A DNA stretch of 64,000 nt, taken from Spinacia oleracea (taxonomy: Eukaryota > Streptophyta > Magnoliopsida > Caryophyllales > Amaranthaceae). Numbering within the stretch: position 1 is the first letter of the stretch; every line of letters starts with the position of its first letter. Positions 54,796 through 61,016 of this stretch are shown here, in pieces. The stretch spans positions 109,898,141-109,962,140 of the forward strand of contig NC_079487.1 in the NCBI RefSeq assembly GCF_020520425.1. The letters are read 5' to 3'. The position numbers and the translations under genes were made by a program. The notes under the pieces were generated by a model, which made no database searches, was not told the DNA's origin, and saw only the letters and a list, made by a program, of their open reading frames with translations.

Positions 54796-54842
54796 ATTAT
54801 TATTATTATTATTATTATTATTATTATTATTATTATTATTAT
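54796..54842. repeat. (ATT)n array, left-most
   Basis: About 15 ATT units. On the minus strand it is the AAT tail directly after a short 5'-truncated copy of the retroelement 3' end (54843-54919). Confidence 0.9.
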
Positions 54843-54919
54843 CGGAAAACACCAAAACGTTACAAGCTTAACAAGCTACAAAAATCAAATGAGCTACAAG
54901 AAGTTGGAGGGGAGCCGAG
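54843..54919 (-). mobile_element. 5'-truncated copy of the (ATT)n-tailed retroelement 3' end
   Basis: This 77-bp stretch repeats the final codons and 3' UTR of the retroelement at 55004 onward: CTCGGCTCCCCTCC, then GTAGCTTGTTAAGCTTG on the minus strand, with a few substitutions. It ends in its own AAT tail and starts inside the tail of the neighbouring longer copy. Confidence 0.8.
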
Positions 54920-55003
54920 AATTATTATTATTATTATTATTATTATTATTATTATTATTATTATTATTATTATTATTATTATTATTATTATTATTATTAT
55001 TAT
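54920..55003. repeat. (ATT)n array, 3' tail of the retroelement
   Basis: About 28 ATT units immediately downstream (minus strand) of the retroelement 3' UTR. Confidence 0.9.
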
Positions 55004-55638
55004 GAGAAAACATTAAAACGTTACAAGCTTAACAAGCTACAAAGATCAAGTAAACTACAAGAAGTTGGAGGGGAGCCGAGATACAATCTGGGCCCCCACT
55101 CCTCTAGCGATGGCGAACCCGATCCTGCTGAAAATGTGGGCAGCTGCCCGTGCCCCAATGTCTTGAGCCCTGGAGTACGTCTGGACCCGCTTCAGCAAAG
55201 AAACAGCCCCTTTCTCTAATTCCCCAAAGGAAGAGAAAGAAAAAGGAAAGAAACCGTAACCCAAAGCCCTACAACGTGCCGCATACTTATCCAGCTTCCG
55301 CTGCGCTGCAACCGCCACAACCCGACCCGGAACGAAGCCTGACAACCCCGATTGCGTCATAGGGGAAGACCCAGTCAAGTCAACACACACATCTAGACCG
55401 CCATCCCATGAATAAAACAATATATCTGCAGGACGAAGAGCTCCATCACCCTCACTAGTCAGCCCAACATCAACCTCCTTGCGAGCAGAAATCCCCGACC
55501 GATAGCAAATATCCAAAAGGGTATCACGAACAACATTATGTCGATGTTTGATACACACAATCCCAGCACAAGACACGGCATGATCCCCATAAATGTCCCC
55601 ATCAAAAACCCGAGAGCAAGCAGAAAGGGGCTATCGGG

Positions 55639-56090: not shown

Positions 56091-57022
56091 GGTTATTATT
56101 TATTGTAAGAAATTGATAGTGGGTGAATTATTTATTGTGGAAAAAAGAGGATGCGAGTAAGTGAGAGGCCGGACCATATGATCGGAGGTTGGGTGTCGAA
56201 ACAGAAAACAAAGGAACACCCAACCGATAACACAACACACAGCGGGAAGTCTTAGCATTCATCGTCTGTCCCAAACCTGATATGGGGACCACCCGAATCC
56301 AAGCAGAGGCGTGATCTCCCTGCTGCGACTTCCACAATGCCGATTGTCGAGGAGATAAAGAGAAGGTGAATTTTACAGATGCAGTAACCTTTGTTGAATA
56401 TATATCTGTCAAATTCTTCATGAGTTTAGGGGCGGAGACCTCTCTAGGATTACTCAAAATGTCATACTCCACAGTTCTATTAAATAGACTCAACACATCT
56501 TCAAAGACTCGACCAAGACCAACAATGTCAGCATGTCGTAGAAGCTTTGTCTGCAAACCAGAAGACTGTAACTGAGAAGCAAGAAAAGCATAATGACGAA
56601 CATCACCTGCCGAATAAACACCAAGCCCTCCAAACGCAAAAGGTAAGGTGGCAAGTCGCCATTGTCATTCGCCAAACCCAGGCTCCGAAGCAGTAACAAT
56701 ACGCTCTAAGGAAGATCGAAGAACCTCATCGAATGTGCGCAGAGCCGCCTCTAAAATACATGGAGGACACGTACGCTAAGAAAAGTAGAGCTAGAAACTT
56801 CGGTACATGCCCTAAGTAACAACAACTCACACTGAGGATCATCAAGCTTAATTAACAACCTTATCCATAAGCACAATAGTTTTGGTCACCCTTTGCATCA
56901 CAAGCTCAACACTAAAAACGGAACTGGAACTGGCGGGACCACCAAGCAACTTAACACCATCCAAAGGTCGAGCAATATTAGTGGGGAAAGACACCCACAA
57001 GTCTGCTTTGAGGGTCTTCTAT

Positions 57023-59629
57023 TGTAACGCCCCAACCTCTAATTCAAGTAATTAAGCAACGAAATTTACCTAATTTGGTCGGGACATTACTGCCGTAACT
57101 CCCTCTTGGGAATTACAAGGCAAACATCATAATATAAGCTATTAAAACTCCATATTAACATAATAATCTTTTTTATTTCCATAATAAAAGTACATAACTT
57201 ACTAAAAAGTCTTTTACTTAAACTATTACAACTTTAAACATTAATTAGGTGAACATTATTAAATTGAAATCATCGCCACTACTCGTTTCTATCGTCCCCA
57301 GCAATACCTAAAACAGAAAACAAAACGGTGAGCCGAAAACTCGGTAACGAACTATTCTAGTAACATAAATTCATTTCAACTCATTTTAGTTTATAAAACA
57401 GGGAGAATAGAATAATGTAAAATCATTTAATAAACCATCATATTAATCCATTGATAATATTTTTATTAACATGCTAGTTGTTGGCAAGTACGAACTGGTG
57501 GAATATCTTCCACGAAGGGCCTGGGCCCATAGGAGCATGGGCTCATAATCGAACTGCTACATTGGGCCTTGGCCCGAGCCTAGGCTCATAGACCATGGGA
57601 GCCAAGGCTCAACATGGGTGTGCAGGTGCCCTATAGGTACATATATGACCGAGAAATAGAAACATGATAGTATATATACTGCAAAACAAACTAGGTCTTT
57701 CAATTTCATTTATCATGTTGTATTTAATTTTATTTTACTTGGCATTTGTACTTCAGTTGAAGTAACATAACTCATTTAGATCTTGAGATCGAATAAAACA
57801 CCATTATGATTTCTTAAACATCTTGTTATAAGGAATAATTCAATCAAATCATATTTTGTTTTTGCAATTCATAAAACATGTCAAAACATTTAGTTCATAA
57901 ATTCAATCATATCATCATAATTTCATAATCACATTTATACGGGAAATGCAGGTACTAGGAATATCCGTTACCTCAATTCTACGATTTGCTAAGTCTTTTC
58001 CTTGGTTCGTTCTTCCTGAGGTCTGAGTCCGATTTCTTTCAAAATATTAAATTATTGAATTAGTATTAAAACGATAAAAATACTTTAAAAACCAATATTT
58101 TATAAATAATAAATTTATAAATAATGAATTTCATAAAAATAATATATATATATGGGTTTTTATGATATAACAAGAACAGAATTTAAATAATATTTCGTGT
58201 AAATTGATTTATGATATATATATATATATATATATATATATATATATATATATATATATATATATATATATATATTATGATATATATATATATATATATA
58301 TATATATATATATATATATATATATATATATATATATATCATAAATCAATTTACACGAAATATTATTTAAATTCTGTTCTTGTTAAGTCAACCTAGCTAG
58401 TAACTTATTTAAGTAAAATCAATAATTTAATATATTTTCCTACTTGAAAATAATAAACAATTTATAAGTAAATAATTAGATTATCAAACTTTATTTATTA
58501 AAACATAAGTATTATTATGTAGAAATTCTAAAAATTTAGATATGACTTACCCAAATAGCCCAAATAATTAAAATGGGCCAACTTTATTATGGGTTTGGGG
58601 AAAACCAAAGTTTCAAATTGAAACTTTGTTTCTGGGAAGTGGGAACACGAACAGGGGAGGCACGAAGGAGCAGGGGAGGTACGAAGAGGAAGGAGTGGAA
58701 GAGGGAAGGTGGCGGTTGGGCTTGGGTGGCTCGGCGCTGCTAGGTTGCGCCGGTGAAGGCGACGATGGTGGTGGTTGTGCGACGGCAGAAAAACGAGGAA
58801 AGGAGGGGGAGTGAGAACATGGGAGATAACAGGGGAGTTCGAGGGAGGGTGTTTTCCGGCCGGTTCTGGGAGGAGGGAGGGGTGGTTAACGACGAAGGTG
58901 GATTGGGGATGGGTTAGGGAGACAGCGAGGGTGGCTGGGGAGTGGTGGTGCGGCACTGGATGGTGCGGCAGAGGAACGAAAAAGGGGGTAGGGGAGTGCG
59001 TCACTGTGGGTCGGTTCTGGTCGAAGGAAAAGAGAGGGAGTTGCGGTGGTGGTGGTCGACTAAAGTAGTCAGACGGTGAGGCTGAGTGGTTGACAGTGGT
59101 GGTGGTCGCGGTGGTTGTTGGTGATGGTGGTTCGAACAAAGAACAAACCAAGGGAGGTGGGATTGAAATTGGATTTGGTTTTTATTGAAATTCAATTGAA
59201 ATTGTTGATTTGTATACATGTAGAGTGAAGAACAAGGAGAAATCATTGGGGTCCAAGGAATGAACAAAGACTGAATTGAGGGAAGAGAGGAATGAAGGAA
59301 TTCCTTCCCTCTTACTCATACGCGAGGAACAAGGAAAGGGAAGATGCCAATTTTTCTGAAATTTCTGAAAGTTTATTGCTATTTTAGGAATTGATAGAAA
59401 TATAAATGCTTAATTAAAACCAAGTTTTTGAAATAATTCTTATGAAATAATTCTTTATAAAATATCATTAACATAAGTAAATTTTGATTATCAGTTTATC
59501 GTATAAAATATATCGTAAAAATGTTTAAAATCACAAAATTTAATTATTTCTAAATATTTAAAAACGAAATTAAGTTAATAAATATTTTAAATTTTAATAA
59601 ATCAAAGTTTAAAAATTCGGGGTATTACA
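57023..59629 (-). mobile_element. Solo LTR (probable Ty3/Gypsy) inside the retroelement RT gene
   Basis: Ends TGTAACGCCCC and GGGGTATTACA, with perfect 5-bp duplication TCTAT (57018-57022, 59630-59634). No primer-binding site or pol inside, hence a solo LTR of 2607 bp. Removing it and one duplication copy rejoins the RT reading frame of the host element exactly. Orientation minus is inferred from similarity with the LTR at 24901: TGTA(AT/T)CCCC start followed by very AT-rich sequence, then a C-rich leader-like block at 58530-59150. Confidence 0.88.
58169..58384. repeat. Perfect palindrome with (AT)n core
   Basis: Arms of about 48 bp (starting AACAAGAACAGAATTTAAAT) are identical in inverted orientation and enclose a long (AT)n tract with one central ATTATGAT break. 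No mismatch was seen between the arms. Confidence 0.9.
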
Positions 59630-60940
59630 TCTATAGACCAGAAAACTTCAGTTTTGTCCACGTTGAGATGTAACCCGAAACAAGGCTCTTCCTCCATAAT
59701 CAACTGCAGAACCTTTCCCGCCACCAAGGTGCCACCAATAATAGTTTCGTCATCTAAATACCACGCCTGAAAACTTACATCAAAAGCGTCTCTAATTTTA
59801 CACACCAGGGGTTGTAAAACCAAAGCAAAAAGTAGAGGACCAAGAGGATCATCATGCTGCACCCCTTGAGACGACCAAAAAGTGTGCTCTCCATAATATA
59901 ATTTGGATGGAGTTGAGTAGCAGAATTCGACCCGTCGTGAAATGGCCGGACAACAAAGACGAACTACACGTAACATAACCGCTCGATCAACTAAATTGAA
60001 GGCATTTTGAAAATCCACGAACAACATTGAAAGACCCACATCAGAACCACAATCTTCAATCAACCGATCCACAACATGAAGAATTGCCTCACCACCTAAA
60101 AAAACCCCAACACCAAATTGAAAACCATCAAAATAACTTCCCAAAGACGGACCAGCCATAATAACACCGACCTTCGAAATCAGACACCGCCAAACAGTAC
60201 CCACAACTATAGGATGAATACTACCACTGGGTTTGACAAGAGGTGTGATCGAGAGGAGCACTAGAAATATACTCTCCCAAATGCATAGGATATTTTTCAG
60301 CTAAAAAGTGATTAACCACCCCAAAAATAGAGTCAACTAACTCATCTAAAATAGCCACAACAACACCACTCAAGCAATCCATAAGGTGTTGAGCTCGTAA
60401 ACCGTCCCTCCCACATGATGTACCACGTGGAAAACTCCTAATCCGATCCAAAACAACAACAGACGTGTCGATGAGATGATGGTGATCAACAAGCATATCA
60501 TGCAAGGATGGAGCTGGAGAAGGAGGGTGTTTTGACTGTAAATCTGCAAGAGTGGCATCATTATAAGAAGCAACGCCAGAAGAAGAAAGAACCTGGACTG
60601 CGTCGATGTAATATCCATCACAAATCTTCCTACGACACTATTTGATATTACGCTATGCCTAATCAAGATCCTCGCCAACCTCCACCAAAGTAGGGGATCC
60701 AGCTGCCAAAGCTTCCCGCAAAAGCAACATATTACCACCCGGCCCACTCCACGTACAAATAGCATTATCAATGCTCTCTTCCTGTCTTTGCCGCTTAACG
60801 ACAGATGAGCACTCATGATTACTCCTCAGACTAAAGGTTTTAAGGATATAGATACATATAGGACAACATGAGAAGACTAATCCAGCAAGAGATGTCTCCA
60901 GGCTTGCAAATCACCTTATCAAGCGCGCCTTTCAAATCAC

Positions 60941-61016
60941 TTTATTATTATTATTATTATTATTATTATTATTATTATTATTATTATTATTATTATTATT
61001 ATTATTATTATTATTA
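60941..61016. repeat. (ATT)n array at the 5' truncation of the retroelement
   Basis: About 25 TTA units beginning exactly where recognisable retroelement coding sequence (minus strand) stops. Confidence 0.9.

Follow-up and report, generated by a model that had tools for sequence, protein, structure and literature searches.

In a 64,000-nucleotide stretch of the spinach (Spinacia oleracea) genome (contig NC_079487.1, positions 109,898,141 to 109,962,140; hereafter the window) we identified a decayed and 5′-truncated retrotransposon without long terminal repeats (LTRs), which lies on the minus strand at 60.94-55.0 kb and is flanked on both sides by (AAT)n. It is probably a copy of a site-specific lineage of long interspersed nuclear elements (LINEs) that inserts into (AAT)n microsatellites by target-primed reverse transcription, and whose C-terminal domain is most likely a restriction-like endonuclease (RLE). 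Insertion into pre-existing AAT repeats is strongly supported. The argument for this targeting is carried by unfilled sites, that is, paralogous sequences in the same genome that hold the AAT run and no element.

The whole nested locus, made up of copy 1, its flanking arrays, a copy 2 and later insertions, occupies positions 54796-61016 on the minus strand, as do the parts that follow. An (AAT)25 array (60942-61016) forms the 5′ flank of copy 1. The coding region behind it is disrupted by frameshifts and stops and survives as an open piece with a broken frame upstream of the reverse transcriptase (RT) core (60224-60637, compared with the 1,061-amino-acid open reading frame (ORF) of sister copy L013), an RT piece (59605-60300), a linker from the RT to a CCHC-like motif (56131-56664, matched to the sister-copy ORF by eye), and the second part of that motif followed by the RLE candidate with RHN, E, RPAD, D and KxxKY (55058-55630). 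The 5′ truncation falls just beyond the first of these pieces, slightly upstream of the RT. A stop codon and an untranslated region (UTR) of ~50 nt (55004-55057) lead into an (AAT)27 array (54921-55003), which is 3′ of copy 1 and at the same time 5′ of copy 2. The latter is a nested re-insertion within the array, comprising the element's last 78 bp (54843-54920) with 92.1% identity over 76 bp to positions 55006-55081 of copy 1, and is succeeded by an (AAT)15 array (54796-54842). All four AT-rich trinucleotide arrays of at least 8 units in the window fall within the element span, and outside it we found no array of at least 4 AAT or ATT units in 57,600 window bases, which sets these arrays apart from background. 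An earlier note on this DNA, made from its letters alone, had described a non-LTR element with an RT, bounded by (ATT)n on both sides and bearing a 5′-truncated second copy in its tail; it named neither the strand nor the two later insertions described below. The arrays and copy 2 agree with that description, as do the matches to Pfam RVT_1 at 4.5e-5 for the window RT piece, which is below the cut-off, and at 6.6e-13 for the full ORF of an open-frame sister copy.

The source assembly (894,210,420 bases, 242 contigs) was searched with the C-terminal piece. Among 1,979 candidates 150 were scored, and all listed matches were 95-100% identical in the RLE piece. From this list, ranked by similarity to the window C-terminal domain, we fetched the first 20 copies in list order with an open frame of at least 1,000 amino acids. 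A single ORF of 1,061 or 1,063 amino acids is present in 19/20 of these copies, picked as they were for open frames. Across all loci listed, L005 is the same copy as L009, and L035 falls in the place of L016. For the ORF, the following holds. The domain order is an N-terminal C2H2-like motif, the RT, the CCHC-like motif and the C-terminal domain. In the 1,061-amino-acid ORF ~390 residues precede the RT and include the C2H2-like pattern (CPFVGLSGCQ...HLRDRH), for which there was no Pfam match. The closest pairs of copies differ by ~0.5% in the ORF, and we therefore infer that the family was recently active. A second subfamily is ~48% identical to the window subfamily in the C-terminal domain; its search returned 151 matches from 150 scored out of 1,677 candidates, with listed identities down to 51%, and these include an older third group. 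Purifying selection on the protein is seen, as judged from substitution ratios: pN/pS across 12 copies is lowest in the C-terminal domain (0.145) and the RT (0.151) and higher in the N-terminal part (0.220) and the linker (0.255), and between the three subfamilies pN is 0.27-0.41 against a pS of 0.68-0.78, with synonymous sites near saturation.

At the 3′ side, at least 4 AAT units occur within 75 nt of the stop in 20/20 fetched copies. At the 5′ junction at least 5 units were found in 15/20, or 16/20 if L026 is counted, whose start coincides with the first two units of an AAT run that is also seen in its repeat family. No ATT array of at least 4 units was found in the 5′ zones of the 20 copies; the 5′ arrays therefore read AAT on the sense strand, and their orientation is fixed. 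5′ truncation is frequent, and truncated copies such as those in the window and at L006 have AAT on the 5′ side as well. Moreover, the end point of the 3′ UTR varies among copies (e.g. L006, L008 and L021) and AAT is still next to it. The second subfamily, with a different 3′ UTR of ~10 nt, ends in AAT at 10/10 loci, and in the older third subfamily, represented by 8 loci, 6/8 end in at least 4 units and 2/8 in 2-3 units. A further sample of 20 was chosen solely by a 24-base 3′-UTR word. Here at least 3 AAT units follow at once in 19/20, and the 5′ boundary lies within the fetched stretch in 10/20. AAT is directly 5′ of four of these ten boundaries (L062, L066, L069 and L075), one has a mixture of AAT and GAT (L067), and five have neither (L072 = L077, L073, L080 and L081). 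L072 and L077 appear to duplicate a single insertion, and the boundaries of L073 and L080 are probably the ends of other inserted elements. As a control we examined nine spinach loci of RTE or L1 type, mostly coding interior, and found no AAT array of at least 4 units in 25,923 bases, compared to 74 such arrays in 141,430 bases of loci around the element.

Two insertions could be compared with their unfilled sites. The L015 copy lies in a repeat family of which 5/5 paralogues share both flanks with an AAT run between them and no element, the runs being of 4, 13, an interrupted number, 4 and 4 units. L018 lies in another repeat family. In 6/6 of its paralogues the shared right flank adjoins an AAT run and the element is absent; the left flank is visible in 5/6. 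Since the unfilled sites already carry AAT runs, these runs precede the element. The earlier note's proposal of insertion into ATT/TAA repeats is thus strongly supported by the flanks of many copies, their constant orientation and the AAT-bearing unfilled sites; it wished to see flanks of homologues recorded, and those of the fetched spinach copies do carry AAT (3′ 20/20, 5′ 16/20).

The RT is divergent. With phmmer, the window RT piece retrieved four PDB sequences at E up to 10, all of them R2 proteins (best 0.004). The full ORF retrieved R2 first (4e-5) and a group II intron RT next (4.5e-3); lower down came an entry with the label RNA-directed DNA polymerase (0.19), then LINE-1 ORF2 (0.34). 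We considered whether the RT is clearly R2-like and rejected this, as the RT of R2 itself matches spinach RTE elements (assigned to RTE by eye) at 1.5e-22; the RT of the element is therefore simply divergent. It shares 21-24% identity with R2 over 173-176 columns, and 20-23% with the L1-like and RTE sequences of spinach. In a small tree of R2, L1-like, RTE and group II intron RTs, the element has a branch of ~1.8 substitutions per site and falls outside the L1-like clade (ultrafast bootstrap (UFB) 98-99). It joins the group II intron RT at UFB 49, and its placement relative to R2 and RTE is without support. We therefore go only so far as to say that the RT is divergent and not part of the L1-like clade.

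Turning to the C-terminal domain, most copies keep RHN, E, RPAD, 14 residues, D and KxxKY in this order, and the positions of these motifs align with three solved R2 proteins (8gh6, 9dou and 9nl2). Columns invariant between the window and these three proteins include R-H-N, E, D, D, K and Y. A part of PMC5678591 describes the RLE of LINEs as a PD-(D/E)XK variant. Its marks are a CCHC knuckle of the form CX2-3CX7-8HX4C, the residues RH (first helix), PD, D/E and KX2KY (second helix) in that order, and, at the end, GXW after the fourth strand. The motif order derived from R2, relaxed to allow RPxD, arose once in 200,000 shuffles and gave 38 matches in a set of 769 ORFs (each at least 80 amino acids long), every one of them a copy of the C-terminal domain. 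It is kept in 13/15 family sequences longer than 180 amino acids, the misses being L009, where the piece is cut short, and L047, which has KHN. Searched with Pfam to an E-value of 10, the full ORF matched RVT_1 alone and no apurinic/apyrimidinic endonuclease (APE). PDB searches gave no result with the RLE piece, and nothing and three chance-level matches, respectively, with the pieces around it. Judging from motifs and alignments, the domain is likely, but unproven, to be an R2-type RLE. The endonuclease postulated in the earlier note accordingly stands in part: the ordered motifs and the lack of an APE match favour it, whereas the predicted models are poor and give no confident fold, PD-(D/E)XK or other, and the similarity to the R2 profile is marginal.

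Several observations weigh against the reading of the element as an AAT-targeting LINE with an RLE. Four of the 20 copies have no 5′ array (L016, L019, L028 and L010); in L010 an older truncated copy is joined upstream to the ORF, and the (AAT)16 belongs to the 5′ end of that copy. In L009, L011 and L022 an older member of the family has its 3′ end ahead of the 5′ array, and these may therefore be landings in the tail of that older copy. The 3′ AAT run adjoins an ATT array in L010, L013 and L008. At the unfilled L018-type sites, three of the six runs (L085-L087) are short, with CAT or ATT units among them, and hardly any of the left flank is visible in L084. The copies behind the pN/pS values came from a ranking by protein similarity in the C-terminal domain, which lowers pN there. 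In NCBIfam the ORF matched one model alone, that of a group II intron maturase, at 6.2e-7 and 28.9 bits against a cut-off of 300.

The C-terminal domain adds further points of this kind. The motif order was loosened after the sequence had been seen, and beside KHN in L047 there are N in L046 and K in L025 at the second D, both of which satisfy the order via a neighbouring D. The CCHC-like motif is conserved and in the same place, with a spacing of CX2CX10-11HX3C as opposed to the CX2-3CX7-8HX4C of animal RLE elements. It has no R between its first two cysteines, where an R is described for R2, Dong, NeSL and Utopia (PMC5678591, in part). RP-A-D has one extra residue relative to the RPD of animal RLE elements, and FGEL stands in the place of GxW. 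AlphaFold2 gave two poor models, with a mean pLDDT (predicted local distance difference test) of 40.8 and 35.6, and Foldseek returned no significant match for either of these weak models. Alignment of profiles by hhalign against the R2 RLE gave P 0.037; an equally high score came up in 4/300 column permutations, and a higher one with the reversed profile, on a match of 13 columns. Moreover, the window domain was not among the listed six-frame matches of the R2 RLE profile, and a PDB search with the family profile did not retrieve R2.

Could the arrays be of the element's own making? If (AAT)n were a self-made 3′ tail as in RTE and I elements, grown by slippage and later hit by other copies, no target preference would be needed. 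All fetched copies do end in or near AAT, and copies nest in each other's tails (copy 2 in the window, the 5′ arrays of L009, L011 and L022, and the tails of L003, L036 and L045). However, the 5′ AAT in 16/20 copies is mostly not behind an older copy and is found at the 5′-truncated window and L006 copies too, the 3′ end point varies, and the element-free AAT runs at 5/5 and 6/6 unfilled sites contradict such an origin. Taken together, the unfilled sites, the varying 3′ ends and the AAT ends of the other subfamilies speak against a purely element-made tail, and we regard this explanation as very improbable. Slightly less probable still is that the element belongs to L1 or RTE in an unusual form, its APE endonuclease having been lost or missed. 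This would accord with a review that assigns plant LINEs to L1 and RTE only (PMC9033089, in part), but the element has ~390 residues with a C2H2-like motif and no APE match before its RT, where spinach RTE has an N-terminus that is APE-like by eye. Its RT, at 20-23% identity to the spinach L1-like and RTE sequences, lies outside the L1-like clade, with a placement relative to RTE that is without support.

More weight, whilst still unlikely, can be given to insertion into AAT without a nuclease. The element would then exploit unstable repeats where breaks or R-loops arise. Its C-terminal domain would be structural, for instance by binding RNA or DNA or as an inactive RLE fold like that of Prp8. 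Microsatellites are generally known to be prone to breaks, and this would fit the lack of a confident fold and the weak match to the R2 profile. Against it, the motif order is kept in those 13/15 family sequences across three subfamilies near synonymous saturation. Furthermore, the 5′ arrays lie in one orientation and therefore suggest a directed nick.

For a site-specific LINE with a C-terminal RLE, we propose the following course of insertion. The element protein would recognise the AAT array, presumably through one of its own domains, and the RLE, if it acts as a nuclease with the strand choice assumed here, would nick the strand that reads (ATT)n. The 3′ end exposed in this way would anneal to the (A)UAA terminus of the element's RNA and prime synthesis, and the RT would copy the RNA into the array, often stopping early. 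Target-primed reverse transcription is established for R2 and other LINEs.

R2 resembles the element in having an RT, a CCHC-like motif and a C-terminal RHN, E, (R/K)P-D, D and K..Y in order, as well as an N-terminal C2H2-like motif and sequence-specific insertion. It differs in its target, 28S rDNA as opposed to (AAT)n, and in the RPxD spacing, the CCHC spacing and GxW. Dong, of the R4 clade in animals, inserts in TAA repeats and has an RLE. It would thus work in a similar way on the same repeat if the element's C-terminal domain is an RLE; the host of the element is a plant. More generally, a single ORF with an RT and target-specific insertion, the latter common and not universal, are traits of the RLE-type non-LTR group (R2/R4/NeSL/CRE/HERO). 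RLE clades are given as CRE, R2, R4, NeSL and HERO in a part of PMC4640811, where microsatellites are named as targets of some HERO families and (TG)n as that of Togen. These are RLE-encoding or NeSL-related families; their repeat is a different one, and Togen is from fish. Utopia, which bears an RLE, is described from oomycetes (PMC5348765, in part). The L1 and RTE elements of plants share with the element a non-LTR organisation, 5′-truncated copies and the same spinach genome. In contrast to the element, RTE copies have an N-terminus that is APE-like by eye, and the nine loci, mostly coding interior, hold no AAT arrays of at least 4 units.

Among the titles and abstract openings listed in searches of the open-access literature, there was none on an RLE-type LINE of land plants; Repbase may have an entry. 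We put forward only tentatively, and with some doubt, that the element belongs to a deep-branching, unnamed clade of RLE-type, AAT-specific LINEs in flowering plants, with at least three subfamilies and a high copy number in spinach, whose Dong-like target would have evolved or been kept independently of animal R4. If true, an abundant lineage of this kind would widen the range of an early-branching LINE type to include flowering plants, and the (AAT)n loci of spinach would become candidate LINE landing sites. The near-identical open-frame copies would provide a family in which to test how a LINE targets a microsatellite. This bears on whether site specificity is ancestral in LINEs and on how microsatellite targeting arises.

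Copy 1 has itself been interrupted twice. Between the RT and linker pieces lies a solo LTR of 2,607 bp (57023-59629, minus strand) with TG...CA ends and a 5-bp target duplication, TCTAT on the plus strand, on both sides. It reads TGTAATACCCC...GGGGCGTTACA on the minus strand and holds a 111-nt inverted repeat (58163-58273 and 58280-58390, 98% complementary) around long AT runs. The CCHC-like motif is split by a second insertion of ~550 bp (55636-56188, minus strand, ends approximate), which contains an (ATT)n array (55641-55769) and a palindromic part (55894-56077) resembling a miniature inverted-repeat transposable element (MITE). It has an (AAC)n/(AAT)n tail and is possibly an element of its own, similar to a short interspersed nuclear element or a MITE. 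This (ATT)n array was considered as a boundary of copy 1 and rejected because it is carried by the later insertion.

Among the other copies of the family, an AAT run followed by an ATT array is also seen in L040 and L051; together with L008, L010 and L013 it is as if the target resembled a back-to-back AAT/ATT repeat. The 5′ ends of L009, L011, L014, L015, L018, L021-L024 and L027 start with or near GGCGATTAGGG-like motifs and diverge further in. Viral-contig and genome-contig sequence searches found no relatives. A search of 10 loci against Rfam gave only two tRNA-like genes reaching the gathering score and no ribozyme like that of hepatitis delta virus. These genes (L023:1767-1837 and L023:6441-6511, 54.1 bits each, Rfam tRNA) are inverted relative to each other with the L023 copy between them, and are 86% identical over 73 bp.

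Elsewhere in the window a 73-bp GGAAATATTACCGGAAACGG-type tandem array occurs in three copies ~5-9 kb apart (26079-26342, 35124-35385 and 40563-40826). A version resembling its reverse complement is found beside L019, on the 5′ side of that element (oriented 1800-2400), and judging from this resemblance the same mobile element may be behind both. At 19352-19390 there is a run of 6.5 units of the TTAGGG type, the vertebrate-like telomere repeat, where TTTAGGG would be expected of a plant. Lastly, a G+C-rich tandem array with a 44-bp unit is found at 28104-28293.

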